From positions 1 through 33,284 of the forward strand of contig PEAN01000044.1 of NCBI GenBank assembly GCA_002753735.1: a stretch of 33,284 nt of DNA. The letters are read 5' to 3'. Source of the DNA: Magnetococcales bacterium DCbin4. GTDB taxonomy: Bacteria > Pseudomonadota > Magnetococcia > Magnetococcales > UBA8363. The notes beneath the pieces are model-generated. The model saw nothing but the letters and a program-made list of their open reading frames with translations. It made no database searches and was not told the origin of the DNA. Of the stretch, positions 2,969 through 33,151 are shown piece by piece. The position numbers and the translations under genes are program-made. Each line of letters opens with the position of its first letter. Position 1 is the first letter of the stretch.

Positions 2969-2970
2969 AC

Positions 2971-4746: not shown

Positions 4747-4763
4747 ACCGGGGAGATATCCTT

Positions 4764-15537: not shown

Positions 15538-17504
15538 TGTCATCAAGATTGGATTCGCCACGCCAGCTTTGGGAAAGGATATGGCGGCGCACAACATTGA
15601 CGGTCAAAGCGCTATTCGTGTCGGTTACCATGGGATGGGCTTTCTGGTTGCTGACCGACCTGTGGCAATCATCCCAGATTCATGCCATTTTTCGTCAAGA
15701 ACAACTGGACAAACTTGAAATTCAGGCATTGCATGACCGCCTGCTCTTTGATGAGTACATTCGAAAGCAGGAACAGTCGGTCAGGTTAATCTCCTTTCTG
15801 ACCCCACTGATTCAATGGATTGAGGCGAACATACAAAACGAACTCCCGACGCTTCGGCAGTGGAATGCAGAAAACCGCCCCCCCTGGCTTCCGCCCCCAT
15901 CGATCATGCGTAATCTGGTTGCAGCTTCCCATATCCTTCTATTAGATGAAAATAGAAAATTACGCGAGTCTTATGCTCAGGAAGATGCATCACATCAACT
16001 TTCATCCAGTTTGACCAACCAGGTTCTTCCCCATCTACTGGCATCGGATGAATACAGCCATATCGCTTCAGACGCCCAAGGAACGATTTATTTGATCAAT
16101 GTCAGTGGTATCATGGGCAAAAAATCTTCAGAGCAACCCAAGGCATTTCTGGTTCTGGTGGTCGCCCTGAATGCCGATTTTCTTTCTCTATTTCATACCC
16201 GTTCCAATTCAGATGGAATTGTAGTTTTATTCAATGGCGATACCAACCTTGTGATTGCAAGCAATCAACCCGATAAGATCAAAGAAGGAACTTCACTGGA
16301 CGAATTGAATAATAGATACGATATTATTGGAAAACGCTTTCTGGATTACAATTTTTCAATCGATATTCCCATTCATTTTGCATCCTTGGTGTCCAAGGAC
16401 GAGACCTTTCGTATCATCTCTTCCATCCAACATGAAGAGCGCAGGCACCGTGCGATTGGCTATACCGCGTTGGCGGCGATATTTTTCGCCTTGGTGTTTT
16501 TTTTGACAAGAAAGTTAAAAATATTCACCGAGGGGATGATTGGAACTGCGATCCATCAATTGGGATTGAAAAAACAGAATGTCGCTTCAGGTGATCAGCT
16601 ATTGATCATGGGAGAGCAGTTTCAATGGATGATCGATGAAATTCTCCGCTCTCGACGACGTGAACAGGCACGTCAGGAAGAGCTGGAACAGACCAACCAA
16701 GCATTGCAGCAATCCCTTGTGGTGGTCAAACGGACGCAGGCACAGTTGGTAGAAGCGGAAAAGATGGCCTCTTTGGGAAACCTGGTGGCGGGAGTGGCCC
16801 ATGAAATCAATACCCCCGTCGGATCGAGCGTTACCGCGGCCTCATTCTTGAAGCAGGAAAGCCAGAAATGTGCTGCACACTTTGCAGATGGAACGTTGCG
16901 CAAATCAGAATTGGAAAGTTACTTTCAGGATGTCACCGAATCAACCCAGATGATTTTGCAAAATTTGCACCGGGCGGCAGACCTGGTACGCAGCTTCAAA
17001 CAGGTAGCGGTTGACCGTACCAGCGAAACCCGTCGCAATTTTCGTCTCCATGAATGTATTCAACATACCTTACTGAGCCTACGCCCACATTTAAAGCAAA
17101 CCCGACACAAAGTAACCGTACACTGCCCGGAATCCTTGGAAATCAACAGTTACCCGGGTGTCTTTTCCCAAATTATCAGCAATTTTGTCATTAATTCCCT
17201 AATCCACGGTTTCCATGAAATCAATGATGGAGAAATCAACTTTGATGTATCCCATCGGGATGACCGCTTGGTCTTTCGTTATTCCGACAATGGTCACGGC
17301 ATGCCGGAGGAGGTACGGAAAAGGATCTATGAACCTTTCTTCACCACGGCCCGGAACCGGGGAGGAAGTGGTCTTGGAATGCATATTGTCTTCAATCTTG
17401 TCACCCAAACCCTGAAAGGGACCCTCCAATGTGTCAGCAGTCCCGGTCAAGGAACCCTGTATGAACTATGTATTCCCATGGAACCAGGAACCACGGGGGA
17501 ATGA
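15537..17504 (+). CDS. Membrane sensor histidine kinase with large periplasmic domain
   Basis: The product is 655 aa. A first transmembrane helix (about residues 23-43) and a second (about 306-323, YTALAAIFFALVFFLT) enclose a periplasmic domain of about 260 residues, probably double-Cache-like. A coiled coil (QEELEQTNQALQQSLVVVKRTQAQLVEAEKM) leads to the dimerisation/H-box LGNLVAGVAHEINTPVGSS with phospho-acceptor His422. The ATPase domain has the N box (NFVINSLIHGF, near 549), G1 DNGHGMPE (near 585) and G2 GGSGLGMHIV (near 609). The kinase class resembles HisKA-less, two-helix AHEINTPVG kinases. The start ATG at 15537 overlaps the binding-protein stop by 1 nt, with GGAGAG before it. The next gene encodes its likely regulator. 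Confidence 0.93.
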   Translation: MSSRLDSPRQLWERIWRRTTLTVKALFVSVTMGWAFWLLTDLWQSSQIHAIFRQEQLDKLEIQALHDRLLFDEYIRKQEQSVRLISFLTPLIQWIEANIQNELPTLRQWNAENRPPWLPPPSIMRNLVAASHILLLDENRKLRESYAQEDASHQLSSSLTNQVLPHLLASDEYSHIASDAQGTIYLINVSGIMGKKSSEQPKAFLVLVVALNADFLSLFHTRSNSDGIVVLFNGDTNLVIASNQPDKIKEGTSLDELNNRYDIIGKRFLDYNFSIDIPIHFASLVSKDETFRIISSIQHEERRHRAIGYTALAAIFFALVFFLTRKLKIFTEGMIGTAIHQLGLKKQNVASGDQLLIMGEQFQWMIDEILRSRRREQARQEELEQTNQALQQSLVVVKRTQAQLVEAEKMASLGNLVAGVAHEINTPVGSSVTAASFLKQESQKCAAHFADGTLRKSELESYFQDVTESTQMILQNLHRAADLVRSFKQVAVDRTSETRRNFRLHECIQHTLLSLRPHLKQTRHKVTVHCPESLEINSYPGVFSQIISNFVINSLIHGFHEINDGEINFDVSHRDDRLVFRYSDNGHGMPEEVRKRIYEPFFTTARNRGGSGLGMHIVFNLVTQTLKGTLQCVSSPGQGTLYELCIPMEPGTTGE

Positions 17505-17509
17505 TCACC

Positions 17510-19081
17510 ATGACCTCTGACGATCCCCTGTTATTTACGCATCACGCGCCCAAGGATGACCTCAACGAGGTCATCCATACACGCATCACGCCCGATACAC
17601 CCAATGCCCAAAAATGGAAAATCATCGTTGTTGACGATGATGAAGAAGTGCTTTCAATCACAAGGCTGGTCTTGCGCAGATTCACCTTTGAGGAACGGCC
17701 GGTTGAACTTTATTGCGGGACCTCGGGTGTTGAAGCCATACGCCTGCTCCAGGAACACCCTGACGCCGCCATACTGTTGCTGGACGTGGTCATGGAGGAT
17801 GAGCGGACAGGTTTGAATGTCGTACGACATGTCCGGGACGAAATGCAAAATTATTTCATCCGCATTATTTTGCGCACCGGACAGCCGGGTCGTGCCCCGG
17901 AAGAACATGTGTTTGCGGAATATGAAATCAACGACTACAAGGAAAAGTCATTTCTCACGGGTCAAGGATTGATCACCTCGATTCTTTCGGCATTGCGTTC
18001 ATATCGTGACCTGCGCGCCCTGGAGAACATGCGCAAAGGACTGACCCGCATCATCGATGCGACTGAAGACCTGTTCAAACCCAATTCCATTAAAACCCTG
18101 GCATCGGGAATATTGACCCAACTGGCTTCCATCATCGGGCTGGAACACAATGGCATGAAAAGCCACGTCTCCTGCCTGGCCTGTTCCAACCGACGCGGCA
18201 CCCTGCTGGTGTATGCTGGGACAGGACGATACGAAAAAGCGGTGGGATTGCCGGTCAGGGAGGTTGTATCGGACAAGGTATTCCATCACATCGAAGAAGG
18301 GATCACCAGCGGACGATCCCTCTTTTTCGATCATTGCTATTTGGGATATTTCAAATCGGCACTTGGCATCAATTTGATTTTCATCGAAGGTCATCAACCC
18401 ATCAGCAATCTTGAAAGAAAATTGCTTGAAGTATTTTCCGCCAATATCACGTTTGCGTTCGACAATCTTTTTCTGAACCGGGAAGTGATCGAAACCCAAA
18501 GAGAGGTCACATTCACCCTGGGAGAAGTCATCGAAATCCGCTCCCAGGAAACGGGACAACATGTTCGCCGTGTTGCCCTGTTTTCCAGGTTCCTGGCATC
18601 CAAATCAGGTTTGGATGAGGCCCAGGCGGAACTGCTCTTCATGGCTTCACCCCTACATGATTTGGGCAAGATTGGCATTCCCGACCCGATACTGAACAAA
18701 CCGGGACCCTTGGACCCAAAAGAACGACTGATCATGCAAGGTCATACCACCATCGGTCACAACATATTGAAGAATTCGACCCGATCCATCCTCAAGGCAG
18801 GATCCATCATTTCCCTGCAACATCATGAACGATGGGACGGGACGGGGTACCCCAACGCCCTGCGCATGGAAGAGATTCACATCTTTGCCCGCATCACCGC
18901 AGTTTCCGATGTATTCGATGCCCTTTCTTCGGACCGCTGCTACAGGAAGGCATGGGATATGGATCGGGTATTGGCATTCTTCAAGGAAGAAAGGGGACGG
19001 CAGTTCGATCCAGAGCTGGTCGATCTGCTGTTTGAGCATCAGGAAGTTCTATTCAGCATCAAACAAAATTTAAAAGATTAA
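17510..19081 (+). CDS. Response regulator with REC, DUF3369 and HD-GYP domains (predicted c-di-GMP phosphodiesterase)
   Basis: The product is 523 aa. The receiver domain (about 45-170) has acidic VVDDDEE, phospho-acceptor Asp92 (LLLDVVME), LRTG and DYKEKS with the conserved Lys. A middle DUF3369 sensor-like domain (about 185-330) follows. The C-terminal HD-GYP domain (about 335-515) has an intact HDLGKIGIPD (His383-Asp384), HHERWDGTGYP and ARITAVSDVFDAL, so it should hydrolyse c-di-GMP. The open frame begins at 17468, and ATG 17501 overlaps the kinase stop as ATGA; I prefer ATG 17510, 10 nt after GGGGG. The gene order kinase then regulator indicates a cognate pair. DUF3369-HD-GYP regulators are common in proteobacteria with sensor kinases. 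Confidence 0.93.
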   Translation: MTSDDPLLFTHHAPKDDLNEVIHTRITPDTPNAQKWKIIVVDDDEEVLSITRLVLRRFTFEERPVELYCGTSGVEAIRLLQEHPDAAILLLDVVMEDERTGLNVVRHVRDEMQNYFIRIILRTGQPGRAPEEHVFAEYEINDYKEKSFLTGQGLITSILSALRSYRDLRALENMRKGLTRIIDATEDLFKPNSIKTLASGILTQLASIIGLEHNGMKSHVSCLACSNRRGTLLVYAGTGRYEKAVGLPVREVVSDKVFHHIEEGITSGRSLFFDHCYLGYFKSALGINLIFIEGHQPISNLERKLLEVFSANITFAFDNLFLNREVIETQREVTFTLGEVIEIRSQETGQHVRRVALFSRFLASKSGLDEAQAELLFMASPLHDLGKIGIPDPILNKPGPLDPKERLIMQGHTTIGHNILKNSTRSILKAGSIISLQHHERWDGTGYPNALRMEEIHIFARITAVSDVFDALSSDRCYRKAWDMDRVLAFFKEERGRQFDPELVDLLFEHQEVLFSIKQNLKD

Positions 19082-19194: not shown

Positions 19195-19377
19195 ATGTCC
19201 AACAAGACACGCGCCCAAACGACCCACGATATCCTTGATCAGGTTGCCAAGGCCCAGAAGATACTCAATGATTTGAACGAAACCACCTGTCAGGAAGGGG
19301 CAACCGTCCGTAGCCGTTTGAATGCCGCAAAAGCCCACATCATGCGCGCCATCGAAAAGGCACAAACCATGAAATAG
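19195..19377 (+). CDS. Small helical protein, unknown
   Basis: The product is 60 aa and hydrophilic, with heptad-like helices (THDILDQVAKAQKILNDLNE and RSRLNAAKAHIMRAIEKAQ). No signal peptide or known motif is seen, and I do not recognise it. ATG 19195 is preceded by AAAAAGG. Its stop codon touches the GGCTCTTC element at 19377, so the element may have inserted at, or formed, the gene end. Base use resembles neighbouring coding DNA, which supports reality, but evidence is limited. Confidence 0.5.
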   Translation: MSNKTRAQTTHDILDQVAKAQKILNDLNETTCQEGATVRSRLNAAKAHIMRAIEKAQTMK

Positions 19378-19399
19378 GCTCTTCCAGCGTTAGATGTGG
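19377..19399. repeat. GGCTCTTC-type 23-bp element, copy 1
   Basis: GGCTCTTCCAGCGTTAGATG and the following TGG match the copy at 33129-33151 with 21 of 23 positions. Both copies stand just upstream of a dispersed-repeat copy (19472 and 33187). The GGCTCTTC start resembles terminal inverted repeats of ISL3-family insertion sequences, but no transposase is present, so it may be a relic or part of a larger dispersed element. Confidence 0.5.
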
Positions 19400-19650: not shown

Positions 19651-20601
19651 TCAGGGGGGAAAGACCAGATTGAGGGTATCGGAAACGCTCTTATGCTCAC
19701 TCACAGCATGATTGAAGACTGCAATCGCAGCCGGAATGGTCTTCCCCTGGCCCAGGACCGTATCATCATCATGCCCCGTGCTCAACAGGCGCGACATCTC
19801 AAGGTGCCAATACCCATCCTTCCACACCCCCCGTGCACTGACATCGGCAATGCTGCCCGATGCCTTCCCCGTCAACATCGTGCTCGGCTCCAAATCTTGC
19901 AAATGTTCCTTCGGGGCCTTGCGACTGGTGAAAATGGCTTCGCCCGCATCACTTCGATTCAGAATATTGACAACGCCATAGGGACTCTCATGTTCGGCAG
20001 CCCCCTCAATGGGATTACGGGTAATCACATGATAACGATCTTCAGCAAAACCCGCATCATTGCTCCGTCCGGCGGACCAATGCCACAGATCAACCCGATA
20101 ATCCTTGTTGCTCAACATGCAGGAATCATAGTCACCGTCCAAATAAAAACGGATGGCAAACCCGTCATCGAACTGTTTTTTGTTTTGCTGATAGCCGGTA
20201 TCGACCCAACGCCAGGGGCGATGCAGGATATCGGGCGCATTGTCCGGCCAACGGGCGGCCAGATAGAACCGATCACCAAAAACCCCAAACCGTATTTCAA
20301 CATCGTGTGTCCCCGTTTTGTTCTCGGGGTCATGTTCCAGGGCAGGATGGACCACAGCCAAAAACGTCTGTTTCGTCAGACCAGGCCATTCATCCAATTG
20401 TCCATCCACAACGGGTGCGGTATCCAGAACAGGAACGTTCACGGTGTGCGGTTGTCCCATGGGCGCCGGTTTCATGACAGGAGCACCCTCCTTTGCCATG
20501 GCAACGGAGGACCACACGGACACTGGCAGCAGCAGGGAAACAACGGCCACACCCCAATCCTGAACCCGTCGCCCCCGAAAAAAAGAACGCCTCGGAGCCA
20601 T
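19651..20601 (-). CDS. Ethylbenzene-dehydrogenase-type haem-binding domain protein, secreted
   Basis: The 316-aa precursor has a twin-arginine-containing N-terminus (MAPRRSFFRGRR) and a hydrophobic segment ending SVAMAKE. The rest fits the DMSO-reductase/ethylbenzene dehydrogenase gamma-type haem-b domain: VNVPVLDTAPVVDGQLDEWPG, VEIRFGVFGDRFYLAARWPD, DDGFAIRFYLDGDYDSCMLS, and a late GVWKDGYWHLEMSRLL. Such subunits accept electrons into a b-haem in the periplasm. No molybdenum catalytic subunit is nearby, which is unusual. A beta-sandwich sugar-binding fold of similar shape is an alternative. The ATG at 20601 lies 13 nt beyond the cupredoxin stop codon, so the two genes form an operon. The RRSFFRGRR start may be a Tat signal, though the consensus is imperfect. 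Confidence 0.78.
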   Translation of the reverse strand: MAPRRSFFRGRRVQDWGVAVVSLLLPVSVWSSVAMAKEGAPVMKPAPMGQPHTVNVPVLDTAPVVDGQLDEWPGLTKQTFLAVVHPALEHDPENKTGTHDVEIRFGVFGDRFYLAARWPDNAPDILHRPWRWVDTGYQQNKKQFDDGFAIRFYLDGDYDSCMLSNKDYRVDLWHWSAGRSNDAGFAEDRYHVITRNPIEGAAEHESPYGVVNILNRSDAGEAIFTSRKAPKEHLQDLEPSTMLTGKASGSIADVSARGVWKDGYWHLEMSRLLSTGHDDDTVLGQGKTIPAAIAVFNHAVSEHKSVSDTLNLVFPP

Positions 20602-20614
20602 CGATATTGCCGTA

Positions 20615-21082
20615 CTATTCAATTTGCAATACCCCTTCCATTCCCTGTTTGCGATGGTCCTCAATGGTACAATAGGACGTATAGCTCCCTTTCGTGACCG
20701 GCACGAAAAACAGTTCCAACATTCCATTGGGCATGATCTCCAGGGCAATCACATGCGGAGCCTTGATCTCCCCCTGGTTGGGCGCTTCGATCTTACGGGT
20801 ACTGATGGCCATGTAAAATTCCGGAGCGGTGAAATAATGCTTCTTCTCACCTACATTTTTCAGGACCAGCTTATATGCCTTGCCTGCTTTAAAGGTGGCT
20901 TTGTTGGGGGAATAGCTGTGTTCATCAAGCGTGATGGTAACGGTCTCCATTTCTTTCCAATTGGCATCGGCGACAATCTTTTCCCGTTGCGCGATGGGAT
21001 CCAAGGTTTCGGCAATCGCGGCCAAACTGCTGACCATCATCAGCGCAGAGATGGCCCATGAAGCAATCCTGGTCATGTTCAC
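20615..21082 (-). CDS. Periplasmic cupredoxin (type-1 copper protein)
   Basis: The product is about 155 aa with a signal peptide (ISALMMVSSLAAIA, cut before ETLDP). The C-terminal cupredoxin domain carries a full type-1 copper set: His82 (KKHYFTAPEFY) and Cys138, His143, Met148 (SYCTIEDHRKQGM). This supports a blue-copper electron carrier or a copper-binding domain. The start is GTG 21082, 9 nt after AGGAG; ATG 21076 is the alternative. The frame also opens to 21136 without a signal. It lies between a small membrane protein gene and the haem-binding protein gene, in the same direction. Confidence 0.85.
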   Translation of the reverse strand: MNMTRIASWAISALMMVSSLAAIAETLDPIAQREKIVADANWKEMETVTITLDEHSYSPNKATFKAGKAYKLVLKNVGEKKHYFTAPEFYMAISTRKIEAPNQGEIKAPHVIALEIMPNGMLELFFVPVTKGSYTSYCTIEDHRKQGMEGVLQIE

Positions 21083-21160
21083 GTCATGTTTCTCCTGAGT
21101 AACTTGCAGTGGTCCCAATAAAGCCTTCAGCCACAAGCCTCGTCCACTGAGGCTGAAAAG

Positions 21161-21793
21161 TCAAGAATGATCGCTCATTGAATGCGTCCTGCCCACAAAA
21201 CGACTGCTGTAGGGGGGAAGAAGTGACTGGATGGTGGTCAGTTGCTTCACAATCTGTTCCCGTCCATGCGGATCATCAACGGCGTCGGGATCAATGGCAT
21301 GGATGGCAGCGCGAATCGCCAAAGCACGTTGCCGTTCACCCTGCTGCCACATCTGAATCATATCCAATGATTCATGTTTGGGTGCATGATTGGAATGCTG
21401 GTCACGAAAATCAAGATCGGCGATCTGGTCGGCATGCAGACCAAATGCCATCAAAATGGAATGGACGTAGTTGACCCATAGGCGATCCGCGATGAACAAT
21501 GCTGCCAAATTGACCAGGAGTGACACACCAATCACCCATCCGGTTTCGTAAAGCAGCAGGGTAAACATATCCGAAGAAGCTTGTCTGTGAATGCGGTACA
21601 GATTGGCATCGATCAAGGTACTGAAACGATGGTACAGGTAGAACAGACCAACCGAAATGATGCCAAGTTCCATGACCACCAGGGCCAATAACATGCGCAT
21701 CTGGATTTTGTAATCAACATAGCGCATCCCCAACTGGCTGAACGAAAAAGTGAGTATCGGTCGCTTCGCTGTATGGAGATCCGGGTGGTCCAT
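21161..21793 (-). CDS. Two-helix membrane protein, receptor-stub-like
   Basis: The 210-aa product has a short basic N-terminus (YVDYKIQMRM) followed by two membrane helices (about residues 34-54 and 80-104). The region between them is about 25 residues and helical, and a soluble cytoplasmic tail of about 105 residues contains a His-rich stretch (DQHSNHAPKHES). The tail lacks a recognisable HAMP, MCP, kinase or GGDEF domain. The N-terminal layout resembles membrane parts of some chemoreceptor-like proteins encoded beside multihaem cytochromes. I cannot name a function. ATG 21793 has AAGGA 10 nt upstream. It begins 12 nt after the seven-haem cytochrome gene and is therefore co-transcribed. Confidence 0.72.
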   Translation of the reverse strand: MDHPDLHTAKRPILTFSFSQLGMRYVDYKIQMRMLLALVVMELGIISVGLFYLYHRFSTLIDANLYRIHRQASSDMFTLLLYETGWVIGVSLLVNLAALFIADRLWVNYVHSILMAFGLHADQIADLDFRDQHSNHAPKHESLDMIQMWQQGERQRALAIRAAIHAIDPDAVDDPHGREQIVKQLTTIQSLLPPYSSRFVGRTHSMSDHS

Positions 21794-21805
21794 CAGGTCG
21801 TATCC

Positions 21806-22588
21806 TTACAAATCGTGGCAGATCAGACAGAGTTCCGAACCCGCTTTCGAGGCAACCAAGCCACCATGCTCCTTGCTGTAGCCGACATGACAGGAAATAC
21901 ATCCAATCCTGCCATTGGGAAGAATGACGACCGTGGGTAATTGATCGATGGGACGATATCCCCCATAGGCAGAGGCCGCCTGGTAGGATTTTCCGATGGG
22001 ATGATTCATGGAACTCGATTTATGGCGCATCAGACCAGATGTGTCGATGCCGACCTGATTCATATCCGCCTGCTCGTCATGACAAGTCATGCATTGAAGG
22101 GAGAATGAATCAAGATCGAGCGATGGAAGGGTCCCCCTGGCCTCCAGATGACCGAAACTTTGGAGCGATGCACCATGGTCAGGCATCTTATCAAAGAAGC
22201 CTTTGTCATGGCAGGCAAGACAAAATGCCTCTCCGGAACTCCCGGTCCGCATCAAACCAATACCGGTTCCATGGATGTTGTGACAGGAACTACAGGTCAA
22301 ATCGCCTTTCCAGTCGAGGGGATATTCCTTGGCCAGGGGGCGTTTGGGTGCAAAGCCGCTGGGATGACTCATAAGGATCGCCTGGGCATGACAGGTCGCA
22401 CATAATCGTTCCTGGCTGGCGACCAGCATCGAAGCATTGACCGGCGTCACATCCTTGGCCAGATGGCACTGGGCACATGGTGTCGTTGCCATATGGGGTC
22501 CGGTGGTATGCGCCATGCCCCACAGCAAAAACGTGACCAGAGCGCAGCCCAGAACCAAGCCCCATTTTTTATAATTTGACAAGTTCAT
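21806..22588 (-). CDS. Membrane-anchored seven-haem c-type cytochrome (doubled-CXXCH type)
   Basis: The 260-aa product has an N-terminal membrane anchor or uncleaved signal (about residues 7-27, WGLVLGCALVTFLLW). Seven CXXCH motifs follow: CAQCH, CATCH, CSSCH, CLACH, CMTCH, CISCH, CLICH. Pairing of motifs and SHPSGF/NHPIGK segments place it in the doubled-CXXCH/cytochrome c3-like group, and extra histidines (HNIHG, GHLEARG) can serve as distal ligands. It is therefore a periplasmic electron wire. The ATG at 22588 has AAGGA 6 nt upstream and overlaps the preceding gene by 20 nt, so translation is probably coupled. It is flanked on both sides by two-helix membrane proteins. Confidence 0.9.
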   Translation of the reverse strand: MNLSNYKKWGLVLGCALVTFLLWGMAHTTGPHMATTPCAQCHLAKDVTPVNASMLVASQERLCATCHAQAILMSHPSGFAPKRPLAKEYPLDWKGDLTCSSCHNIHGTGIGLMRTGSSGEAFCLACHDKGFFDKMPDHGASLQSFGHLEARGTLPSLDLDSFSLQCMTCHDEQADMNQVGIDTSGLMRHKSSSMNHPIGKSYQAASAYGGYRPIDQLPTVVILPNGRIGCISCHVGYSKEHGGLVASKAGSELCLICHDL

Positions 22589-23123
22589 CCAGTTCCTTGA
22601 ACTTTTGCATGTGATGCTTGAACTCATCGCCAAGGTCAGGTTTCCCTGAATTTAACAGCACCAGTGCCGAATCCACCCGTTCGCTGAGACTGTCATAGTG
22701 GAATTGCAGACGGTTGGCGGCTCCAGCCAATCGAAGATGTTCGTTTTTAAGTTCGCCGGTTCCAGTCAATTGGCCAACAGAACAAGGACCATTTTTGATC
22801 TGACGGATCAAGGTTTGAGTAAACTGATGCAGGGGACCGGCAATCCGGTAGGTGCTGTAGAGGGCAATCATCCAAGTGACCAGGCCAGTCATGGCCAACA
22901 AGATGGTTCCAGATGTCATGAGGGCGGGTTCAAGTTGTTTCCGGGTCATCATCAAGGAATTGAACATGCTGGCATAATTGCCACCAGGATCATGGTCGAG
23001 ATAGAACAGGATGGCGGTGAACAGGAGACCGGAAGAAATCCCCGCCCACAGGCCCAGCTTGGCGACCAGGTGAAGACGGGCGACCACCTTGGAAGGTGGC
23101 AGGCGATTGGAGGAATCGGGCAT
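22569..23123 (-). CDS. Two-helix membrane protein with HAMP-like segment
   Basis: The 184-aa product has two membrane helices (about residues 22-44 and 70-92) enclosing a periplasmic loop of about 25 residues. The second helix leads directly into STYRIAGPLHQFTQTLIRQIKNG, a HAMP-like signature. A helical cytoplasmic tail follows, but no kinase, MCP or GGDEF output is present. It may be a truncated receptor, a partner subunit, or a membrane anchor for the seven-haem cytochrome whose gene it overlaps. The ATG at 23123 has a weak GAAAGAAATG upstream. Confidence 0.75.
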   Translation of the reverse strand: MPDSSNRLPPSKVVARLHLVAKLGLWAGISSGLLFTAILFYLDHDPGGNYASMFNSLMMTRKQLEPALMTSGTILLAMTGLVTWMIALYSTYRIAGPLHQFTQTLIRQIKNGPCSVGQLTGTGELKNEHLRLAGAANRLQFHYDSLSERVDSALVLLNSGKPDLGDEFKHHMQKFKELDELVKL

Positions 23124-23174
23124 GACGCATTTCTTTCGGGATCAAACGCCACATCATTCGGTATCGTGGCAGAT

Positions 23175-23204
23175 ATTTTGGCAGACTGAACCATCAAATG
23201 TCAA
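23175..23204 (-). promoter_or_regulatory. Candidate sigma70 promoter before the HAMP-like/seven-haem genes
   Basis: On the minus strand TTGACA (23204-23199) and CAAAAT (23180-23175) are 18 nt apart, about 50 nt upstream of the ATG at 23123. The -35 is perfect and the -10 is 4/6. It lies in the 114-nt gap after the three-haem gene, so the downstream genes could be transcribed independently of it. Confidence 0.42.
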
Positions 23205-23237
23205 TATGCAGATGAACATCTGAAGAAATGATCAAGT

Positions 23238-24326
23238 TTACCGATCCATGCGGTCCAACCTGGCGACCCGATGAAAAACCCGATTGATATAATGGAGAAT
23301 CGAGACCAGTTCCTCATCGGACAAGACCGATTTCCATGCCGGCATGGAGGTGCCGACAATCCCTTCCCGCAAGGTCGTCAATAAGGTCGCGACCGTCTGA
23401 CCCTCCATGAACGCATCCGAGGTCAAATCACGCGGATGAGGTTCAAGGAACTGGCCAATCCAATTTTTACCCGTACCATCGGCGGCATGGCAAAAAGCAC
23501 AATTTTTCTGAAACAACGTCTCCCCCAACCGTTCACGCGGCGTCAGATCGGGCACAGCCACGGGCCGGTCATGAACAGCATAGACCGACGCCCCATTGAC
23601 CGCATCAAACCTGCCAACGGTTTCCGGAGTCACCCCATTGCGTGGAAAAGAGACGGGACGTGCATCCCAAATGGGTCCCTCATCTTCAACCCGTCCTCGA
23701 TCATGACAGGTAATGCAGGCCGAAAGGAACAATTTCTTTCCCTCCCGTTGATCATCGGTCAGTCTTTCATCGGGGGTATCGAGCGCCAGCTCCCCTGTGG
23801 CAAACGGGAACGCCACCGCATAACGATCATGATGGTCCCATCCATTTTCCTTGATATGATAGCGCGTATTGGTGTCATGCCGGATCATGAATTCCAGACG
23901 GATGAAATCGGCCACCTCTTCGATTTCATCCTGACTCAAAATGGTGCCGAACCCCTTCATGGCCGTCTCACCGACGCCCGAGGTGATCGCCCGCACCATC
24001 CGTTCCCGTGGAAGGTCATCAGGGGAAGTCGTAACGAAATTCCGCGGTTTCGGCATGATATAGCTGCTGGCCAAAGTCCGGGCATCGCCGGAATAACCAT
24101 GACAAAAATAACAGCGGAAATTGTAGATCCTTCGCCCACGTTCATGGCGATCAGAATTTGACCCATCCATCACCGCTGCCGCAGACAGGGGTTCATCCCC
24201 CGATACCACAACCGGGTGGACCACCAACCCCAGCCCCACCATCGCACCCGCCAGCCATGCAATCATCGCAAGTTGATCATCTTTGTTCAGTATCCCCGAG
24301 ACCTGGGGCGTGTTGTTGACATTCAA
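23238..24326 (-). CDS. Three-haem c-type cytochrome (periplasmic)
   Basis: The 362-aa precursor has a hydrophobic segment (about residues 21-42, MIAWLAGAMVGLGLVVHPVVV) as a signal or anchor, and three class-I type CXXCH sites: CYFCH (72-76), CITCH (about 204-208) and CAFCH (about 275). The first and third domains repeat the same pattern: CXXCH, then PKPRNF or PHPRDL, then a distal Met in TAMKGF or TSMPAW. The middle domain has diverged. It likely shuttles electrons in the periplasm. The start is uncertain: ATG 24326 abuts the dispersed repeat and has no ribosome-binding site; ATG 24266 (residue 21) is an alternative. It lies upstream of the HAMP-like gene by 114 nt. Confidence 0.87.
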   Translation of the reverse strand: MNVNNTPQVSGILNKDDQLAMIAWLAGAMVGLGLVVHPVVVSGDEPLSAAAVMDGSNSDRHERGRRIYNFRCYFCHGYSGDARTLASSYIMPKPRNFVTTSPDDLPRERMVRAITSGVGETAMKGFGTILSQDEIEEVADFIRLEFMIRHDTNTRYHIKENGWDHHDRYAVAFPFATGELALDTPDERLTDDQREGKKLFLSACITCHDRGRVEDEGPIWDARPVSFPRNGVTPETVGRFDAVNGASVYAVHDRPVAVPDLTPRERLGETLFQKNCAFCHAADGTGKNWIGQFLEPHPRDLTSDAFMEGQTVATLLTTLREGIVGTSMPAWKSVLSDEELVSILHYINRVFHRVARLDRMDR

Positions 24327-24540
24327 AAGAATTATTGAAAAAAGAAAGGGGTCCAGGGGATTGCCCCCAGGATTTTGACTTTAGATCTTGATGTTGACCT
24401 TGCAATGGCATCCCCCACAGGGGGTTTGGGGGAAGATGTCCCCCAAAGTGCATCTTCAATGATTATGATCGATCACCAAAATCAAAACCCCGGGGACCAT
24501 CCCCCGGACCCATTGTTCTTGATTATTTTATTAAAATAAA
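24320..24540. repeat. Dispersed palindromic repeat, copy D (complex, extended)
   Basis: The element has outer arms TTCAAAAGAATTATTGA (left) and CTTGATTATTTTATTA (right), with GGGG..AGGGGATTGCCCCC next to the left arm and CCCCGGGGACCATCCCCCGG next to the right one. Between them are two further G/C palindromes (CCCCCACAGGGGG and GGGGGAAGATGTCCCCC). This looks like a whole copy with internal nested copies. It fills the gap between two cytochrome genes and touches the start of the downstream one. No open frame is inside. Confidence 0.7.
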
Positions 24541-24546
24541 CACACC

Positions 24547-25635
24547 TTAGGGTTTACTGTCGTTCTTCAGCCGATCCAATTCTTCCCTGTGACCCGGGCT
24601 GATAAAGGAAAGGAAAACATATTCACCGACATTGGCGATCTCTTGTGGCGTCAAAACCTTATCCCAAGCCGGCATTTCACTTCGAACCACCCCCTTGGCG
24701 ATCACGTCAAACAGACGTGGCCGGTTATACTTGTGCTGCGACGCCGGATGGCGGAAATTGCGCGGCTTGGGATCGATGAATTCCGACCGTGGACCACGAC
24801 CATCTCCCGCCTTTCCATGACAGACGGAGCAATTGGCCAGATAGAAACGCATCCCCCAATCCGGATCTCCCTGCAAACCTTGAGGCATGGGTTCCCGCAT
24901 GGCCGCCAAATCCAGGGAATCCACCACGCCCGCTTCCGCCACTGCCCCCGTAACCGGAGTTCCCGCCACAGGTGCTCCCTTGGGTTCCAACGTTTCAGCG
25001 ACTTCCCCCCCCCCCTTGAAGATAATTGCATCGCGAACATAATTCACGACTGCCAGAATTTCTTCCTCGGTCAAACGGCCCGACCATGCAGGCATGGCGG
25101 TTTCGGGACGGCCATATCGCACCGAGAACAACATGCGTTCAAGGGAAAGTTCCCGACGTGCCCGCTCACTGGTGAAGTCGCGTGGCGCCGGATTGAGTCC
25201 ACTCTGCGCCCACACCGCAGTGTCACCACGATCCCCATGACAAACGGAACAATTCTGGGCATACAATCGCCGACCGGGGCTCGCCTTCTCCGAACGGACC
25301 GAAGGCATGAGCCGATCCTGGATATAATCGACGACACCTTCGATCTGGGCATCGGTCAAAACCCGACTCCAACCGGACATTGCAGTCCCGGGACGCCCCT
25401 CCCGCACCGATTTGATCATCCGCTCCCGGGTCAGGTCCACCAACCCTGCCGGATCGGTAAACACCCGAGGTGGCGGATTCATCCCCCCCGACATGGTGGA
25501 ACTTCCTTCACCCTTTCGCCCATGACATGATGCACAATATTTTTGGTATAAATCGTGGGACACATTTTCGGTCGCGGAAGCCGGCAAGGCCAACAGAAAG
25601 AAAACGACCGCGACAAAGCGTGAAAATCGTAACAT
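24547..25635 (-). CDS. Three-haem c-type cytochrome made of tandem domains
   Basis: The 362-aa precursor has a signal peptide (residues 1-22, ALPASA/TE). Three tandem class-I cytochrome domains each carry CXXCH (Cys34-His38; about 128; about 268), a downstream P-x-P-R-x-F (PPPRVF, PAPRDF, PKPRNF) and a distal Met (TAMSGW, TAMPAW, SEMPAW). An Ala/Val/Gly-rich linker separates domains two and three. The repetition indicates internal duplication of one unit. It is probably a soluble periplasmic electron carrier. AAGGGATG lies about 8 nt before ATG 25635. It is divergent from the NHL lipoprotein gene. Confidence 0.92.
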   Translation of the reverse strand: MLRFSRFVAVVFFLLALPASATENVSHDLYQKYCASCHGRKGEGSSTMSGGMNPPPRVFTDPAGLVDLTRERMIKSVREGRPGTAMSGWSRVLTDAQIEGVVDYIQDRLMPSVRSEKASPGRRLYAQNCSVCHGDRGDTAVWAQSGLNPAPRDFTSERARRELSLERMLFSVRYGRPETAMPAWSGRLTEEEILAVVNYVRDAIIFKGGGEVAETLEPKGAPVAGTPVTGAVAEAGVVDSLDLAAMREPMPQGLQGDPDWGMRFYLANCSVCHGKAGDGRGPRSEFIDPKPRNFRHPASQHKYNRPRLFDVIAKGVVRSEMPAWDKVLTPQEIANVGEYVFLSFISPGHREELDRLKNDSKP

Positions 25636-25736: not shown

Positions 25737-25797
25737 ACACACACTGGATGAAATTCCATCGGCAATTCCATGCCCAGCAATGAACGGGAGGTTATTC

Positions 25798-27300
25798 ATG
25801 TACACGTCGGTCACATTGAGGATCATGCTTGCATGCCTGGCCCTGCTGCCCCTCATGTCCGGGTGCGTCACCACACCCAAGGAGGCGGAAACCCTGCCCG
25901 AACTGGTATATCCCGTCCCTCCCGATCAAGCCCGTTTCGCCTACGAACGGACCATTCTCAGCAGTGCCGACTCCATGCCCAAGGAAAGCTCCGCATCGGC
26001 GGAACTCAGATCCATGCTTTCCGGTGAAGTGGAAACTTCCGGAAAAGCCTTCGGCAAACCCTACGGCATCGTAGCCCGCAAAGGTGTGGTTTTCGTCTCC
26101 GACACCATCCACCGAACGGTTCTGAGATTTGACCCCGCCCGGGGTTCATTTACCGAAATCGGAAAAAAAGATCCCGGCACCCTGTCCAAACCCATGGGTC
26201 TGTCCCTTGACGCCAATGGCAACCTGTACGTCATGGATGCAACCAATAAACAGGTCATGGTCTACGACAACCAAGGCACCTATCTGCGTTCCATCGGCAA
26301 CAAAGATGATTTCAACCACCCCTCCTCCGTTGCCGTCAACCCCGAAGGGACACGCATCTTCACCGTCGATACCGCCGGCCCCCGCAGTGAACCTGAATTC
26401 CACCGCATCCGCGTTTATGATGCGGTCAAAGGAACATTTCTCTACAATATTGGCCGCCGCGGCAGCGGTGATGGTGAATTCAACCTCCTGCGCGATGCCG
26501 CCATTGGCAAGGATGGTCTGCTCTACGTCGTCGATGGCGGCAACTTCCGGATTCAAGTCTTCAACCAGGATGGCACCTTTGTCCGCAAATTTGGTGAGGT
26601 CGGACGACATCTCGGGCAGTTCGCCCGTCCCAAAGGGATTGCCACGGACCATGAAAATAATCTTTATGTCTCCGATGCCTCCCACGGCAATTTCCAAATC
26701 TTCAATAAAGATGGACAACTCCTTCTCTTTGTCGGCGACCGTGGCAAGGAAACCGAACGCGCAAAATATCTCCTTCCCGCCATGATCTCCGTGGACGAAG
26801 ATGGCCGCGTCTACATTGTTGACCAGGGGTATCGCAAGGTCGATATCTTCCGGCCCGTATCCCTTGACACAACGGACGGTTTCCTGGGCAAAGCCTATGA
26901 AACACTCAAGAAAATGCGGCCAAATAAAAACTCCACAGATGCTGCCACCCCAGGAAAAACCCCTGCTGCCAAACCTGAAGCCGCCGCTGCCAAACCTGAA
27001 GCCGCCGCTGCCAAACCTGAAGCCGCCGCTGCCAAACCTGAAGCCGCCGCTGCCAAACCTGAAGCCGCCGCTGCACAAACTCCCGCCGCTTCTGTAACCC
27101 AACCACCTCAAGCAGCCTCACCTTCGGCCCCAACCGCACCTCAAGCGACGGCCAAACCTCCCGAACCTTCAAAACCTGTAGCAACAACCACTCCCAATGC
27201 GTCAACCCCGAGCGCTCAGGAGTCCGCACCTGCGGCAAAACCATCCGATGCTGTTCAGCTTAAAAAAGACGCCAAGATGAAAAGGCTCGGTGGCCTTTGA
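25798..27300 (+). CDS. NHL-repeat beta-propeller lipoprotein with PEAAAAK tail
   Basis: The 500-aa precursor is a lipoprotein (lipobox LMSGC near residue 19). Residues about 75-345 form roughly six NHL blades (GIVARKGVVFVSDTIHRTVLRF, GLSLDANGNLYVMDATNKQV and similar, ending YIVDQGYRKVDIFRP). The C-terminal region, about residues 375-490, is Ala/Pro/Lys-rich with five exact KPEAAAA units and ends with basic KKDAKMKRLGGL, probably a periplasm-spanning or wall-binding tail. NHL propellers are usually protein-interaction scaffolds, and in some bacteria they accompany multihaem cytochromes. ATG 25798 follows GGGAGG; ATG 25780 is in frame but lacks a site. It runs convergently to the diguanylate cyclase gene. 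Confidence 0.9.
   Translation: MYTSVTLRIMLACLALLPLMSGCVTTPKEAETLPELVYPVPPDQARFAYERTILSSADSMPKESSASAELRSMLSGEVETSGKAFGKPYGIVARKGVVFVSDTIHRTVLRFDPARGSFTEIGKKDPGTLSKPMGLSLDANGNLYVMDATNKQVMVYDNQGTYLRSIGNKDDFNHPSSVAVNPEGTRIFTVDTAGPRSEPEFHRIRVYDAVKGTFLYNIGRRGSGDGEFNLLRDAAIGKDGLLYVVDGGNFRIQVFNQDGTFVRKFGEVGRHLGQFARPKGIATDHENNLYVSDASHGNFQIFNKDGQLLLFVGDRGKETERAKYLLPAMISVDEDGRVYIVDQGYRKVDIFRPVSLDTTDGFLGKAYETLKKMRPNKNSTDAATPGKTPAAKPEAAAAKPEAAAAKPEAAAAKPEAAAAKPEAAAAQTPAASVTQPPQAASPSAPTAPQATAKPPEPSKPVATTTPNASTPSAQESAPAAKPSDAVQLKKDAKMKRLGGL
26971..27075 (+). repeat. Five tandem 21-bp repeats encoding KPEAAAA
   Basis: Five exact 21-bp units (only the last base of the fifth differs) encode the KPEAAAA heptads in the lipoprotein tail. 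Such near-identity at DNA level implies recent copy-number change by slippage. Copy number probably varies between strains and changes the tail length. Confidence 0.92.
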
Positions 27301-27463: not shown

Positions 27464-29188
27464 TCATCCCTCCAACGGCACCACACTCACTTCAGGGAGT
27501 GGAACAGCGGAACACACTTGGTTGCGCCCTTTGTGTTTGGCTTCATACAAGGCTTCATCCGCTTTTTTCACCAACTCTTCGGGCTTGTCGATCTCACACG
27601 CAGGCATGGTGACAACCCCCGTGCTGATGGTCACCTTCAACCCATCCACCTCCATCTGTTCGACGCGACGCCGAAAACGTTCCGCCACCACATAAGTTCC
27701 TGTAGCACTGGTATCGGGCAGGAGGACACAAAACTCCTCCCCACCGAAACGACAGGGGATATCAACTTTGCGAAAATGCTCCTTCATCGCCTTGCCAATG
27801 GCCTGCAAAACCCGATCACCCTGATCGTGACCATAAGTGTCGTTGAATTTCTTGAAATGATCGACATCGAACAAAATAAATCCAAGAAAGTGGTTATAGC
27901 GTTGCGACCTTTTCACCTCATTGGTCAACGATTCATCCAGAAAACGGCGGTTATAAACTTGTGTCAGTGCATCGGTAATGGCATGACGCCTCAGCTTGTC
28001 TTCCAGAAGTTTTTCTTCAGTCACATCCCGCAGCATGAACGTCGAACCCACTTCACGCTGCTGTTCATCAAACAAGGTTGCCGCATGAATTTTGATGGCC
28101 CGACTGTTATAGACCACGAGATCCGGAATATTCCGACCACGACGATACAACATGGCCCTCATATACTCTTGATCATCAATAATGTTTTCCCAACCTTCAT
28201 CCATGATCTGCTGTGAACTCTTGCCAAGCATCTGCTCCGCCGAAGGATTGACCAATACCACCTTTTGTCGCCCATCGGTCACGATGATACCGTCCAGCGC
28301 CCCAAGGATGATGGTTGACAGCTTGTCTTGCTCCCGACGCAATCCCTCATAGGTTTCTCGTAGCTCGAAAACCATTTTATTGAAGGACTTGGCAATCGCG
28401 CTGATCTCATCCCTTCCAGGCGCCTTGATCGTCAAATCCAAACGTCCACCAGCCACCGTCTCCATGGCCGCCATGACATTCCCCAAAGGACGCACCAACG
28501 AATAGCGGATCATCAGATGAAGCAAAACCAACATGAACAGAAGCGCCCCCAAGGCCATGATCGACGCCTGAACCCGCGTCTGAGCAATATCCAACTCGGC
28601 CTGAGTCAACGAAGTGGTAATCTGGACCAGGCCCCGCAACAGGTGTTCCTGGCCATGACAGCGAAAACATTTTTCGCCATTCATCACCGGAGCCAGATAG
28701 ACCAGGCGTTCATGCATCCCATTAACCGTCACATAGCGTGGGAGGAGACGCAAATTTTCGCTCACCCACAACAGGTCGGGATCCTTGGGATCCAGCAATG
28801 GTTTCACCGTCTCACGGTCTCGCGGAAAGAACTCCTCCCGCCCCAGGCGACGATTGACATCTTCAATGGTCTTATTATCGAGAAAGGCTTCCTGGCCATC
28901 GACACGCAAAATTCTGAATTCGATGATGTTACGATCCTGGCGGACGTTTTCGACAAAATCATGGGCGATATTGGCATAACCCGCCGTCATGATCGTCTGA
29001 AGAGAACTGATCACATGGGTCACCATCAACGTCATGGTCCGTTCATTCTGGGCCATGATCGTCTTTTCCTGGCGTTCCACGGAGAAAAGGATCATCCAGA
29101 GCAACATCAGTCCCACGGCGCTGGCAATGGAAATCATGACCCGGGTACTGATGCTGAAAGACTGCATGATTGAGCGCATGGAAAACAT
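27464..29188 (-). CDS. Membrane diguanylate cyclase with periplasmic c-haem motif, HAMP, PAS and GGEEF
   Basis: The product is 574 aa. Membrane helix 1 (about 17-37) and helix 2 (about 205-225) enclose a periplasmic domain of about 165 residues with one CXXCH (CFRCH, near 174) in the context NGEKCFRCHGQEHLLRGLVQI, resembling Tll0287/DUF3365-type haem-c sensors. HAMP (about 226-285), PAS (about 295-410) and GGDEF (about 420-560) domains follow. The active-site loop is GGEEF, predicted active, and RKVD lies five residues before it, a complete product-inhibition I-site. The enzyme should make c-di-GMP from two GTP in response to a haem-sensed signal. ATG 29188 is used; no strong ribosome-binding site is visible. 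It lies downstream of the propeller operon terminator. Confidence 0.93.
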   Translation of the reverse strand: MFSMRSIMQSFSISTRVMISIASAVGLMLLWMILFSVERQEKTIMAQNERTMTLMVTHVISSLQTIMTAGYANIAHDFVENVRQDRNIIEFRILRVDGQEAFLDNKTIEDVNRRLGREEFFPRDRETVKPLLDPKDPDLLWVSENLRLLPRYVTVNGMHERLVYLAPVMNGEKCFRCHGQEHLLRGLVQITTSLTQAELDIAQTRVQASIMALGALLFMLVLLHLMIRYSLVRPLGNVMAAMETVAGGRLDLTIKAPGRDEISAIAKSFNKMVFELRETYEGLRREQDKLSTIILGALDGIIVTDGRQKVVLVNPSAEQMLGKSSQQIMDEGWENIIDDQEYMRAMLYRRGRNIPDLVVYNSRAIKIHAATLFDEQQREVGSTFMLRDVTEEKLLEDKLRRHAITDALTQVYNRRFLDESLTNEVKRSQRYNHFLGFILFDVDHFKKFNDTYGHDQGDRVLQAIGKAMKEHFRKVDIPCRFGGEEFCVLLPDTSATGTYVVAERFRRRVEQMEVDGLKVTISTGVVTMPACEIDKPEELVKKADEALYEAKHKGRNQVCSAVPLPEVSVVPLEG

Positions 29189-29319: not shown

Positions 29320-30690
29320 TCATTTCTTCGGATAGATCCGAGCGACGCCACCATAGCTGCCAACCCACTGAGAACCATCCTGAGAAAAGGTCATGGAAAA
29401 GACGTTGTTGGAAAACAGGCCATCGGCCGTGGTAATCACAGAGAAGGAACCATCATCTTTTCTCAGCGCCAAACCCGCGCTGGTCCCGACCCACAAACGT
29501 CCCTTTTCATCCTTGTGCAACATGAAGATGTGGTTGGAAGGCAACCCATTGTCCTTGGTCAGGTTGGTCCACTTTTCACCATCGAAATGCGCCAAGCCGG
29601 CCCCCCAGGTGCCACACCACACCCCACCTTTGCCATCAGCGACCAGGGAAATGATGTAATTGGGATTATAGGCCGTTTTGACGTGCCCCAATCCCTGCTC
29701 CTCCTTTTGACGGGCATGATGGCTGGAAACCGCCCCCGGATCGCTGTCGAAGGTGTTTTGCCCTTTCACCAGATCATAGGGGGCACCCACCCCGTCGGTG
29801 TGTGTCCAATGTTTCCATTGACCGTCGCGAAACAGGGCCACGCCCCCTTCGGTCGCCAGCCACACATCACCATTCAACCCTTCAGCAAGCCCGTAAATCC
29901 AATCGTTGGGCAGACCACCCTTGGTATTCTCAACCGTATAGGTACGCCACTTGGAAGAATCCTGGAGGGCACCACCCACGATATGATTGACCCCGGACCA
30001 GGTTGCAATCCACACATCACCATTGGACACCTTCATGACCCCATAGACAAAGGCATCCGCCAGCCCTTGAGGAATATTGAAGGAGGTCCATTTTTCCTTT
30101 TCCTGGTCAAACACCGACAACCCACCGCCATAAGTACCCACAGCGATGGAATTGCCCATCGGACCGACATGAAACACCCCATTGGCCAACAGACTGCCAT
30201 TGCGTACATCGAACAAGCGATAATCATCCTTGTTGACATCGTACCGGATCACCCCGCTCGACGTTCCCACCCACACATAGCCCCCTTGGGCATACATCGA
30301 CTTAACGTTACGGTTGCCCACGCGAAAGTGGGTAAACTTACCCTTGGCCGCATCCCCTTTGGGAACACCTGTCAACGTCAGCTGCTCCTGGCCAGAAGGC
30401 GCTTGTGCGGTTCCAGGAGCGGTCACACCCCCGGTTGGATGGGCCATACCGGGAGAGGAGACACCCCCGGTTGGATGGGCCATACCTGCCGCCCCCTCCG
30501 GTGAGAGTGGATTTCTCCCTTTGATGAGGGGGGAAAGCGGCTTTGCCCCGGCCTCGATTCCTTTGGCGATCCCTTTTTCTTCCTGGACGACCGGGGAGTG
30601 TGACCCATCTTGACGCCCCAATTGGTAGGAAATCACTGCAATACCCAGGGCAGCTCCAACGAACACCATGTTTTTCGAGAAAATTTCCAC
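29320..30690 (-). CDS. Free-standing regulator-type beta-propeller, N-terminally anchored
   Basis: The 456-aa product has an N-terminal membrane helix (about 8-24) and a Pro/Gly-rich linker (25-115) with two copies of GMAHPTGGV. A propeller of six or seven blades (about 116-456) follows, with WVGTSSGV, VWIATWSGVN, LWVGTSAGLAL and similar 'two-component regulator propeller' motifs. One blade carries an insertion before YNPNYIISL. No kinase, GGDEF or DNA-binding domain is attached, unlike typical Reg_prop proteins. The start is GTG 30690 with AAGGAG 7 nt upstream, just after the preceding gene's stop. It is a paralog of the neighbouring lipoprotein and probably works with it in the periplasm. 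Confidence 0.87.
   Translation of the reverse strand: MEIFSKNMVFVGAALGIAVISYQLGRQDGSHSPVVQEEKGIAKGIEAGAKPLSPLIKGRNPLSPEGAAGMAHPTGGVSSPGMAHPTGGVTAPGTAQAPSGQEQLTLTGVPKGDAAKGKFTHFRVGNRNVKSMYAQGGYVWVGTSSGVIRYDVNKDDYRLFDVRNGSLLANGVFHVGPMGNSIAVGTYGGGLSVFDQEKEKWTSFNIPQGLADAFVYGVMKVSNGDVWIATWSGVNHIVGGALQDSSKWRTYTVENTKGGLPNDWIYGLAEGLNGDVWLATEGGVALFRDGQWKHWTHTDGVGAPYDLVKGQNTFDSDPGAVSSHHARQKEEQGLGHVKTAYNPNYIISLVADGKGGVWCGTWGAGLAHFDGEKWTNLTKDNGLPSNHIFMLHKDEKGRLWVGTSAGLALRKDDGSFSVITTADGLFSNNVFSMTFSQDGSQWVGSYGGVARIYPKK
30425..30486. repeat. Two 26-bp direct repeats (36-bp period) in the propeller linker
   Basis: Two identical 26-bp units at 30425-30450 and 30461-30486 (ACACCCCCGGTTGGATGGGC and the following CATACC) encode the doubled GMAHPTGGV of the protein linker. 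A shorter relative is not seen elsewhere in the window. Slippage between the copies could lengthen or shorten the linker in steps of 12 residues. Confidence 0.85.
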
Positions 30691-31870: not shown

Positions 31871-32211
31871 TGTTGCAGCCTTCTGATGTGAGCAATGATG
31901 TTCATGATTTGACCGTCGGAATAGACTGGACGAAAAGCTGGACATGTCGTACCCCCCCTTCGAATGCGATTCAACAGGAGCTTATCGCCCTGTATGAGAC
32001 CATTGGCAGGATCTGCCGGACGTGAAAAATCAGGGGCACCAGGCATCGAACCTCTCCCGGTCGCACCATGACAATGAACACAGGATTCGGCATAGAGTTT
32101 CGCTCCATCAAAGGGATCCGCCGCTTCCAGTGGAAATGCCACCATCAGGAACAACAGCAATCCCCCTCCCGCCAAAACATTCCGGGCACGAACGCCCGAG
32201 CCAGGATTCAT
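31867..32211 (-). CDS. Monohaem c-type cytochrome, periplasmic
   Basis: The 114-aa precursor has a signal or anchor (about residues 10-31, NVLAGGGLLLFLMVAFPLEA), a CVHCH haem site (near residues 44-48), a GAPDFSRPA segment corresponding to the P-x-P-R-x-F of the other cytochromes, and a downstream PAFRP instead of the usual Met-Pro-Ala-Trp, so the sixth ligand is uncertain (a Cys is at TTCPAF). Its start overlaps the Sel1 stop (ATGA) and its stop overlaps the propeller's TTG, so it is translated in a coupled chain. Confidence 0.88.
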   Translation of the reverse strand: MNPGSGVRARNVLAGGGLLLFLMVAFPLEAADPFDGAKLYAESCVHCHGATGRGSMPGAPDFSRPADPANGLIQGDKLLLNRIRRGGTTCPAFRPVYSDGQIMNIIAHIRRLQH

Positions 32212-32990: not shown

Positions 32991-33128
32991 TGATGGTTCC
33001 TCCGTCCATTTCGACACCAACCGAACCTATCCAGACACGATTCCGACCTTTATAGGGTGAATCATACCGCCACTTCATCGGGTAAACCACCCCTTCCCAT
33101 CCAACTTCGGCTCAAGATCGATGAAAAA

Positions 33129-33151
33129 GGCTCTTCTAGCGTTAAATGTGG
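33129..33151. repeat. GGCTCTTC-type 23-bp element, copy 2
   Basis: GGCTCTTCTAGCGTTAAATG plus TGG differs from the copy at 19377 at two positions only. It is followed 35 nt later by another dispersed-repeat copy, the same order as at 19.4 kb. Confidence 0.5.

Follow-up and report, generated by a model that had tools for sequence, protein, structure and literature searches.

We analysed contig C29 (33,284 bp; hereafter the window) of the genome of Magnetococcales bacterium DCbin4, a 4.5 Mb assembly in 148 contigs whose closest relatives are Magnetococcales metagenome-assembled genomes (MAGs). At positions 19651–25635 the window carries seven genes for haem proteins, a copper protein and two small membrane proteins. 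This cluster very probably belongs to a pathway of the Uet type, the undecahaem electron transfer pathway (UetA–J) of Tenderiales and Gallionella (PMC10734462). Within that pathway it probably represents the inner-membrane, periplasmic and regulatory half of a porin-cytochrome system, with a trio of genes (a seven-haem cytochrome and two small membrane proteins) as the hub and a cupredoxin–EB_dh pair as a signalling-linked accessory. Conduits of this kind are already known. A preliminary description of this DNA had recognized no named pathway for the gene set; the pathway does have a name (PMC10734462), but our limited literature search found neither the trio nor the pair described as a part of Uet.

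The seven-gene cluster and its association with undecahaem genes

The cluster contains the following genes:

24547–25635, minus strand: tri1, c-type cytochrome of class I (CcoP-like) with three haems (three CXXCH motifs, three Cytochrome_CBB3 domains, signal peptide)
23238–24326, minus strand: tri2, second c-type cytochrome of class I (CcoP-like) with three haems (three CXXCH motifs)
22569–23123, minus strand: 184-aa membrane protein with two transmembrane (TM) helices, first member of the trio (no Pfam family)
21806–22588, minus strand: seven-haem c-type cytochrome, centre of the trio (seven CXXCH motifs, N-terminal TM anchor)
21161–21793, minus strand: 210-aa two-TM, weakly HAMP-like membrane protein, third member of the trio (no Pfam family)
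20615–21076, minus strand: exported cupredoxin (Cupredoxin_1, E 1e-7)
19651–20601, minus strand: orphan EB_dh-type exported protein, like the gamma subunits of dimethyl sulfoxide (DMSO) reductase type II enzymes (EB_dh, E 1e-20)

All seven genes run in one direction, as the preliminary description had stated, and we likewise recognized no catalytic subunit among them and no molybdopterin or iron-sulfur subunit adjoining the EB_dh gene. The likely true starts are an ATG at 20601 for the EB_dh gene, 21076 for the cupredoxin gene and, for the seven-haem gene, whose open reading frame begins at 22633, the conserved ATG at 22588. Pfam matches of the seven-haem protein above the cut-off were to Paired_CXXCH/Cytochrome_C7 and Cytochrom_c3_2. 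Because the gene set recurs in relatives at 62–77% identity, it is not a product of chance. Homologues of tri1 that are 50–75% identical adjoin tri2 or NHL genes in genomes G003, G004, G017 and G020. In G003 and G004 an NHL gene separates a block containing the trio, cupredoxin and EB_dh genes from a block containing the two three-haem genes; the window therefore juxtaposes at least two modules. Thus all members of the cluster as first described are present, but they do not form one fixed unit. A single seven-gene operon was unsupported, with the modules separately placed in relatives, and scans for promoter- and terminator-like sequences gave no signal above that of shuffled sequences.

The trio was an invariant unit in relatives. 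A scan of about 85,000 species genomes gave 71 loci with a clear seven-haem match, the window included. In 64 of the 71 the trio was intact and co-directional, with representatives in the Magnetococcales and the Alpha-, Beta-, Gamma- and Deltaproteobacteria; two of the other seven loci were contigs under 4 kb. The seven CXXCH motifs were invariant in 49 seven-haem homologues, and the single hydrophobic helix of the protein is N-terminal. The 184-aa protein is a homologue of the 210-aa protein (hhalign probability 96.6, E 7e-10). A weak HAMP score was obtained for 4 of 41 members of the 210-aa family (best E 5e-5) and 1 of 39 members of the 184-aa family, and none of these 41 and 39 relatives had an output domain. 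At least 90% of the members of the 210-aa family, including some from Deltaproteobacteria, keep an Asp and a Gln ahead of the first helix and a Tyr-x-x-His behind it. A Pfam scan of the seven-haem protein found no NapC/NirT domain, and NrfH scored only E 1e-4, far below the cut-off. A fold search with a model of this protein gave no significant PDB match, and a limited literature search gave no relevant account of a heptahaem cytochrome with HAMP.

Presence of the trio was closely associated with presence of an undecahaem cytochrome gene. Among 48 Magnetococcales genomes, the trio was found in 15, the undecahaem gene in 19, and both in 14 (Fisher p 3e-7); the undecahaem gene occurred in 14 of the 15 genomes with the trio but only 5 of the 33 without it. 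High-scoring orphan EB_dh and tri2 genes had identical distributions, each in 20 of the 48 genomes, which comprised all 19 undecahaem-positive genomes plus G003 (p 1.7e-12). G003 is 78% complete and contains the trio, with no undecahaem gene scored; G041 gave a partial undecahaem match, with a more sensitive profile, and lacked EB_dh. In a sample of 397 Pseudomonadota of at least 80% completeness, the undecahaem gene was present in 11 of 11 genomes with the seven-haem gene versus 6 of 386 without it. When 46 genomes outside the Magnetococcales were chosen for their seven-haem gene, 40 had an undecahaem match of more than 390 bits. In one genome, G395, the two genes lay far apart on one contig. 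The pattern of co-occurrence spans several classes. Since the trio accompanies the undecahaem gene almost everywhere, it could serve as a genomic marker for Uet-type extracellular electron transfer in many uncultured Proteobacteria.

Some trio loci had additional neighbours. In three Oxalobacteraceae loci (L078, L080 and L111) a gene for a CcoG/FixG-like membrane polyferredoxin directly follows the trio, and its product is another possible electron partner in that family. Hemerythrin-like genes directly adjoin the trio in L101, L102 and L104 (Sedimenticola and Rhodocyclaceae). The trio in L105, on a contig labelled Acidobacteriota (Polarisedimenticolaceae), is nearly identical to that of a Sedimenticola MAG, as is its gene order, and this contig is probably mis-binned.

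The outer half of the pathway on contig C46

The system reaches past 19651–25635 through an NHL gene and further genes up to 33020, and then onto contig C46 (30,198 bp). The features concerned are:

25780–27300, plus strand: NHL beta-propeller lipoprotein (lipobox LMSGC)
27464–29188, minus strand: diguanylate cyclase, c-haem GGDEF (periplasmic CXXCH sensor domain, HAMP, PAS)
29320–30690, minus strand: Reg_prop beta-propeller protein 1
30695–31945, minus strand: Reg_prop beta-propeller protein 2
32208–33020, minus strand: Sel1-like repeat protein
33129–33151, plus strand: end of a multi-copy insertion sequence, which stops the contig (facing copy at C46 59–81)
C46 9310–11880: undecahaem cytochrome, UetJ-type (11 CXXCH motifs; 832 bits against an alignment of 15 undecahaem proteins that included this sequence)
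C46 11883–12974: NHL protein
C46 18542–19645: Rotamase (peptidyl-prolyl isomerase, PPIase)
C46, across 20000: tetrahaem homologue, UetA-type

The gene order on C46 begins with a sigma-54 response regulator, a PAS kinase, a trihaem cytochrome, a TPR membrane protein, and CcsA and ResB, which are cytochrome c assembly genes. It continues with the undecahaem cytochrome (857 aa), the NHL protein, two trihaem cytochromes, a 323-aa protein of unknown type and two more trihaem cytochromes, followed by a 679-aa porin-like protein, the PPIase (PPIC-type) and the tetrahaem cytochrome. The parts described for Uet are UetA (tetrahaem), UetB (PPIase), UetC (porin), UetDEG (trihaem), UetHI (NHL) and UetJ (undecahaem) (PMC10734462). 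The undecahaem, tetrahaem, PPIase, NHL and small trihaem genes were all found on C46, with a further NHL gene in the window at 25780–27300. Of the four trihaem genes beside the conduit, three were scanned and match TIGR04257. The 679-aa protein occupies the place expected of the porin and is barrel-like by simple criteria: it lacks internal TM helices, its last residue is Phe, and it gives a weak signal of amphipathicity.

The evidence suggests that C46 adjoins the right end of the window and that the assembly was broken within the locus by a single insertion sequence, because the synteny of relatives and a repeated insertion-sequence end at both contig edges agree. In relatives, the Sel1 gene immediately precedes genes for the response regulator and the kinase, after which comes a divergent trihaem gene; C46 opens with exactly this order. 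The window runs into GGCTCTTCTAGCGTTAAATGTGG at 33129, and the facing copy opens C46 at 59–81; this motif occurs 35 times in the genome (at most two mismatches) versus 0 in the control. The octamers flanking the repeat, ATGAAAAA and ATGAATAA, agree in seven of eight bases, as expected of a target duplication. The inverted-repeat end GGCTCTTCYAGCGTTARATGTGG is found at window positions 33129–33151 and 19377–19399, at C46 59–81, and at about 30 other places in the genome. Several pairs of it lie about 150–230 bp apart and resemble small non-autonomous (miniature inverted-repeat transposable element-like) elements; other copies mark contig ends, as would those of a larger insertion sequence, which we presume to be perhaps ISL3-like.

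Relatives also placed the genes of the window directly beside conduit genes. The closest relatives of the window NHL gene abut conduit genes in G017, G020, G023 and G028, and in the last three of these the NHL gene directly abuts the tetrahaem end of the conduit cluster, accompanied in G020 and G023 by one or both three-haem genes. In G013 the Sel1 gene and propellers 2 and 1, in that order, abut the UetA-type tetrahaem gene. Five loci of the Deltaproteobacterial type (L114, L115, L117, L118 and L124) contain the run porin, two-TM protein, heptahaem cytochrome, two-TM protein, NHL, undecahaem, octahaem. In the gammaproteobacterial loci L069, L098 and L113 the trio lies beside tetrahaem, NHL, porin, NHL, undecahaem and octahaem genes (in L113 the tetrahaem and undecahaem genes were not called). 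The porins of these two kinds of locus are homologous. A model of the L114 porin was all-beta, with about 26 or more long strands, and a fold search with it found outer-membrane barrels, with MtrB (6r2q_B) fourth at E 2.4e-8. Homologues of the c-haem GGDEF gene flank the trio in several genomes, and propeller 1 is near it in several loci, including L061, L062, L080, L082, L084, L086, L092, L099 and L101.

Two other parts of the window were noted. Positions 2204–7724 encode NuoE-like and NuoF-like proteins and a 993-aa GltD/NuoG-like flavin iron-sulfur protein with a Molybdop_Fe4S4 domain, a soluble NAD-linked module unconnected to the cytochrome cluster. The genes at 14524–19081, which encode a PstS-like periplasmic binding protein, a sensor kinase and a DUF3369/HD-GYP response regulator, run convergently toward the EB_dh end of the cluster.

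Proposed pathway and alternative explanations

In the proposed pathway, electrons would pass between the respiratory chain and the exterior of the cell. They would cross the outer membrane through the porin barrel, carried by the tetrahaem and undecahaem proteins, and the small trihaem cytochromes would shuttle them through the periplasm. The docking point, where electrons would join the inner-membrane chain or depart from it, would be the seven-haem cytochrome, anchored at the inner membrane by its own TM helix together with the two paralogous two-TM proteins. This hub could be connected by the three-haem class I cytochromes, possibly also by the cupredoxin, to a partner of high potential, for example a haem-copper oxidase; two full haem-copper oxidases are encoded in the genome. 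Inward flow, from Fe(II) or another external donor, is slightly favoured over outward flow.

The location of the trio, its electron transfer, its contact with quinone and the direction of flow are all predictions. On balance we lean toward the trio being the inner-membrane hub of the Uet-type pathway. More tentatively, and with somewhat less than even confidence, we suggest that it represents an undescribed class of inner-membrane electron-transfer complex that links Uet-type outer-membrane conduits to the quinone pool or to oxidases, in which degenerate HAMP-like proteins serve as a membrane scaffold in place of a NapC-type or cytochrome-b anchor. The parts described for Uet-type conduits belong to the outer membrane and the periplasm, and the trio is a testable candidate for the crossing to the inner membrane; cultured carriers of the trio, such as Noviherbaspirillum denitrificans TSA40 and Sedimenticola hydrogenitrophicus, make knock-out possible. 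The pathway predicts electron exchange with metals, minerals or partners outside the cell for some Magnetococcales, though not for G018, a one-contig genome that we presume to be that of Magnetococcus marinus MC-1. A limited search of the literature on extracellular electron transfer in Magnetococcales found nothing relevant.

The cupredoxin has a likely type-1 copper site, formed by the H in KKHYFTAPEF and the C, H and M in YCTIEDHRKQGM, which is conserved in Sedimenticola. A profile of the orphan EB_dh protein matched NXR subunit C (7b04_C, E 4.5e-14) and EBDH gamma (2ivf_C, E 1.1e-7), whereas a PDB search with the sequence alone gave no match. The position of the haem Lys is conserved and the Met is one residue off, with Leu or Ile at the canonical place; binding of haem b is therefore plausible, as a prediction from sequence. 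The two genes are adjacent in Magnetococcales, Sedimenticola, Motiliproteus and Rhodocyclaceae, and the order in G017 is EB_dh, cupredoxin, a 271-aa protein, tri2, tri1, NHL, tetrahaem. We read the pair as a haem/copper redox pair that would be tied to control of the pathway, because at most inspected loci it lies beside a gene for a diguanylate cyclase/phosphodiesterase, a histidine kinase or a chemoreceptor; a sensing or accessory (side-branch) role is in our judgement an evenly balanced proposition. A limited literature search gave no relevant account of a gene set combining EB_dh, cupredoxin and NHL. L003 (contig C97 of the window genome) and L064 (G023) encode another kind of EB_dh protein, a fusion with a class I cytochrome c (505–521 aa), and in G023 its gene adjoins the trio.

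The resemblance to NXR subunit C and EBDH gamma would also fit a haem-b electron-transfer subunit of a DMSO reductase type II molybdenum enzyme encoded elsewhere, which the cluster would then serve, and a molybdenum enzyme of type II is indeed encoded on contig C11. The C11 enzyme was rejected as the catalytic partner, however, since it has its own EB_dh gamma gene; with no catalytic neighbour either, the pair probably does not contribute a subunit to it. No molybdenum catalytic or iron-sulfur subunit lies beside EB_dh in the window cluster or at any of the 13 EB_dh loci of relatives inspected. The orphan gene instead travels with the cupredoxin and Uet genes, and its distribution among genomes fits that of the conduit almost exactly. 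We consider this explanation very unlikely. Scarcely more probable is a free-standing periplasmic pathway, for cytochrome or cupredoxin delivery to a terminal oxidase or for copper or haem handling, that merely lies near conduit genes. Cupredoxins, like class I cytochromes, typically donate electrons to oxidases, and the trio stands alone among unrelated genes in many Betaproteobacteria, but the undecahaem gene is in the genome even where the trio is not adjacent to it (the 40 of 46 above), and no genome in the phylum sample had the seven-haem gene without the conduit.

A stronger competitor, though still an unlikely one, is that the trio is a redox-sensing or signalling complex of the conduit, in which the seven-haem cytochrome reports the periplasmic redox state and the HAMP-like proteins relay it to kinases or diguanylate cyclases. 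The weak HAMP likeness of the two mutually related small proteins would suit this, as would surroundings rich in kinases, a sigma-54 regulator, c-haem GGDEF proteins and propellers. Neither small protein has an output domain, however; seven invariant haem motifs exceed what sensing needs; and in the Deltaproteobacterial loci the trio is flanked by the conduit's structural genes instead of by regulators. The preliminary description had offered a redox sensor as one of three possibilities; this may hold for the cupredoxin–EB_dh pair. Another of the three, a periplasmic electron hub, describes the trio fairly. The remaining one, an extracellular electron-transfer line, is well supported by the synteny and co-occurrence with the undecahaem porin-cytochrome conduit. 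The preliminary description had also held that a new module would be refuted if the set were a fragment of a known complex with catalytic genes elsewhere. The set largely proves to be such a fragment, but the part encoded elsewhere is the outer-membrane conduit and not a molybdenum catalytic subunit.

Several points weigh against assignment of the cluster to a Uet-type pathway with the trio as its hub. Because the genomes are related by descent and so are not independent, the Fisher p-values look stronger than they should. The trio is missing from five or six Uet-positive Magnetococcales and from one other genome, and is therefore not indispensable. C29 and C46 do not overlap in sequence, and the repeat at their edges also terminates other contigs, so that the case for their adjacency falls short of proof. 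In profile comparison the Magnetococcales porin-like protein was not detectably related to other porins, and its barrel nature is read from its position and the simple criteria. Both two-TM proteins show HAMP-like features and not those of quinone enzymes. Finally, the label Uet-type reflects gene content as described in PMC10734462, and the Tenderia Uet was compared by description only.

Comparison with known systems

C46 resembles Uet in having tetrahaem, PPIase, porin-like, trihaem, NHL and undecahaem genes. It differs in that four small trihaem cytochromes lie beside the conduit, versus three in Uet, and in that its porin-like protein is not detectably homologous to the porins examined. 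The Magnetococcales system also differs from Uet in having the trio, the two three-haem class I cytochromes, the cupredoxin–EB_dh pair, the propellers, and the sigma-54/PAS and c-haem GGDEF regulators. The MtrCAB, OetABI and PCC3 conduits likewise combine an outer-membrane barrel with multihaem cytochromes (PMC10553843, PMC10734462). Undecahaem and tetrahaem proteins here take the place of the decahaem MtrA/MtrC, and NHL proteins and a PPIase are present; the porin of the trio operons is, as modelled, structurally similar to MtrB.

Inner-membrane quinol dehydrogenases of the ImcH, CymA and CbcL types place a membrane-anchored multihaem cytochrome between the inner membrane and the periplasm. 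As a working analogy, the trio would occupy the same place in the chain. Unlike these enzymes, it has no NapC/NirT domain and no solved structural homologue that we found, and its anchor consists of one helix and two HAMP-like two-TM proteins. The EB_dh protein shares with the gamma subunits of DMSO reductase type II enzymes (EBDH gamma and NXR-C) the EB_dh domain and the conserved Lys at the haem-ligand position, but differs from them in being an orphan, in being paired with a cupredoxin, and in having its Met ligand position offset by one residue.

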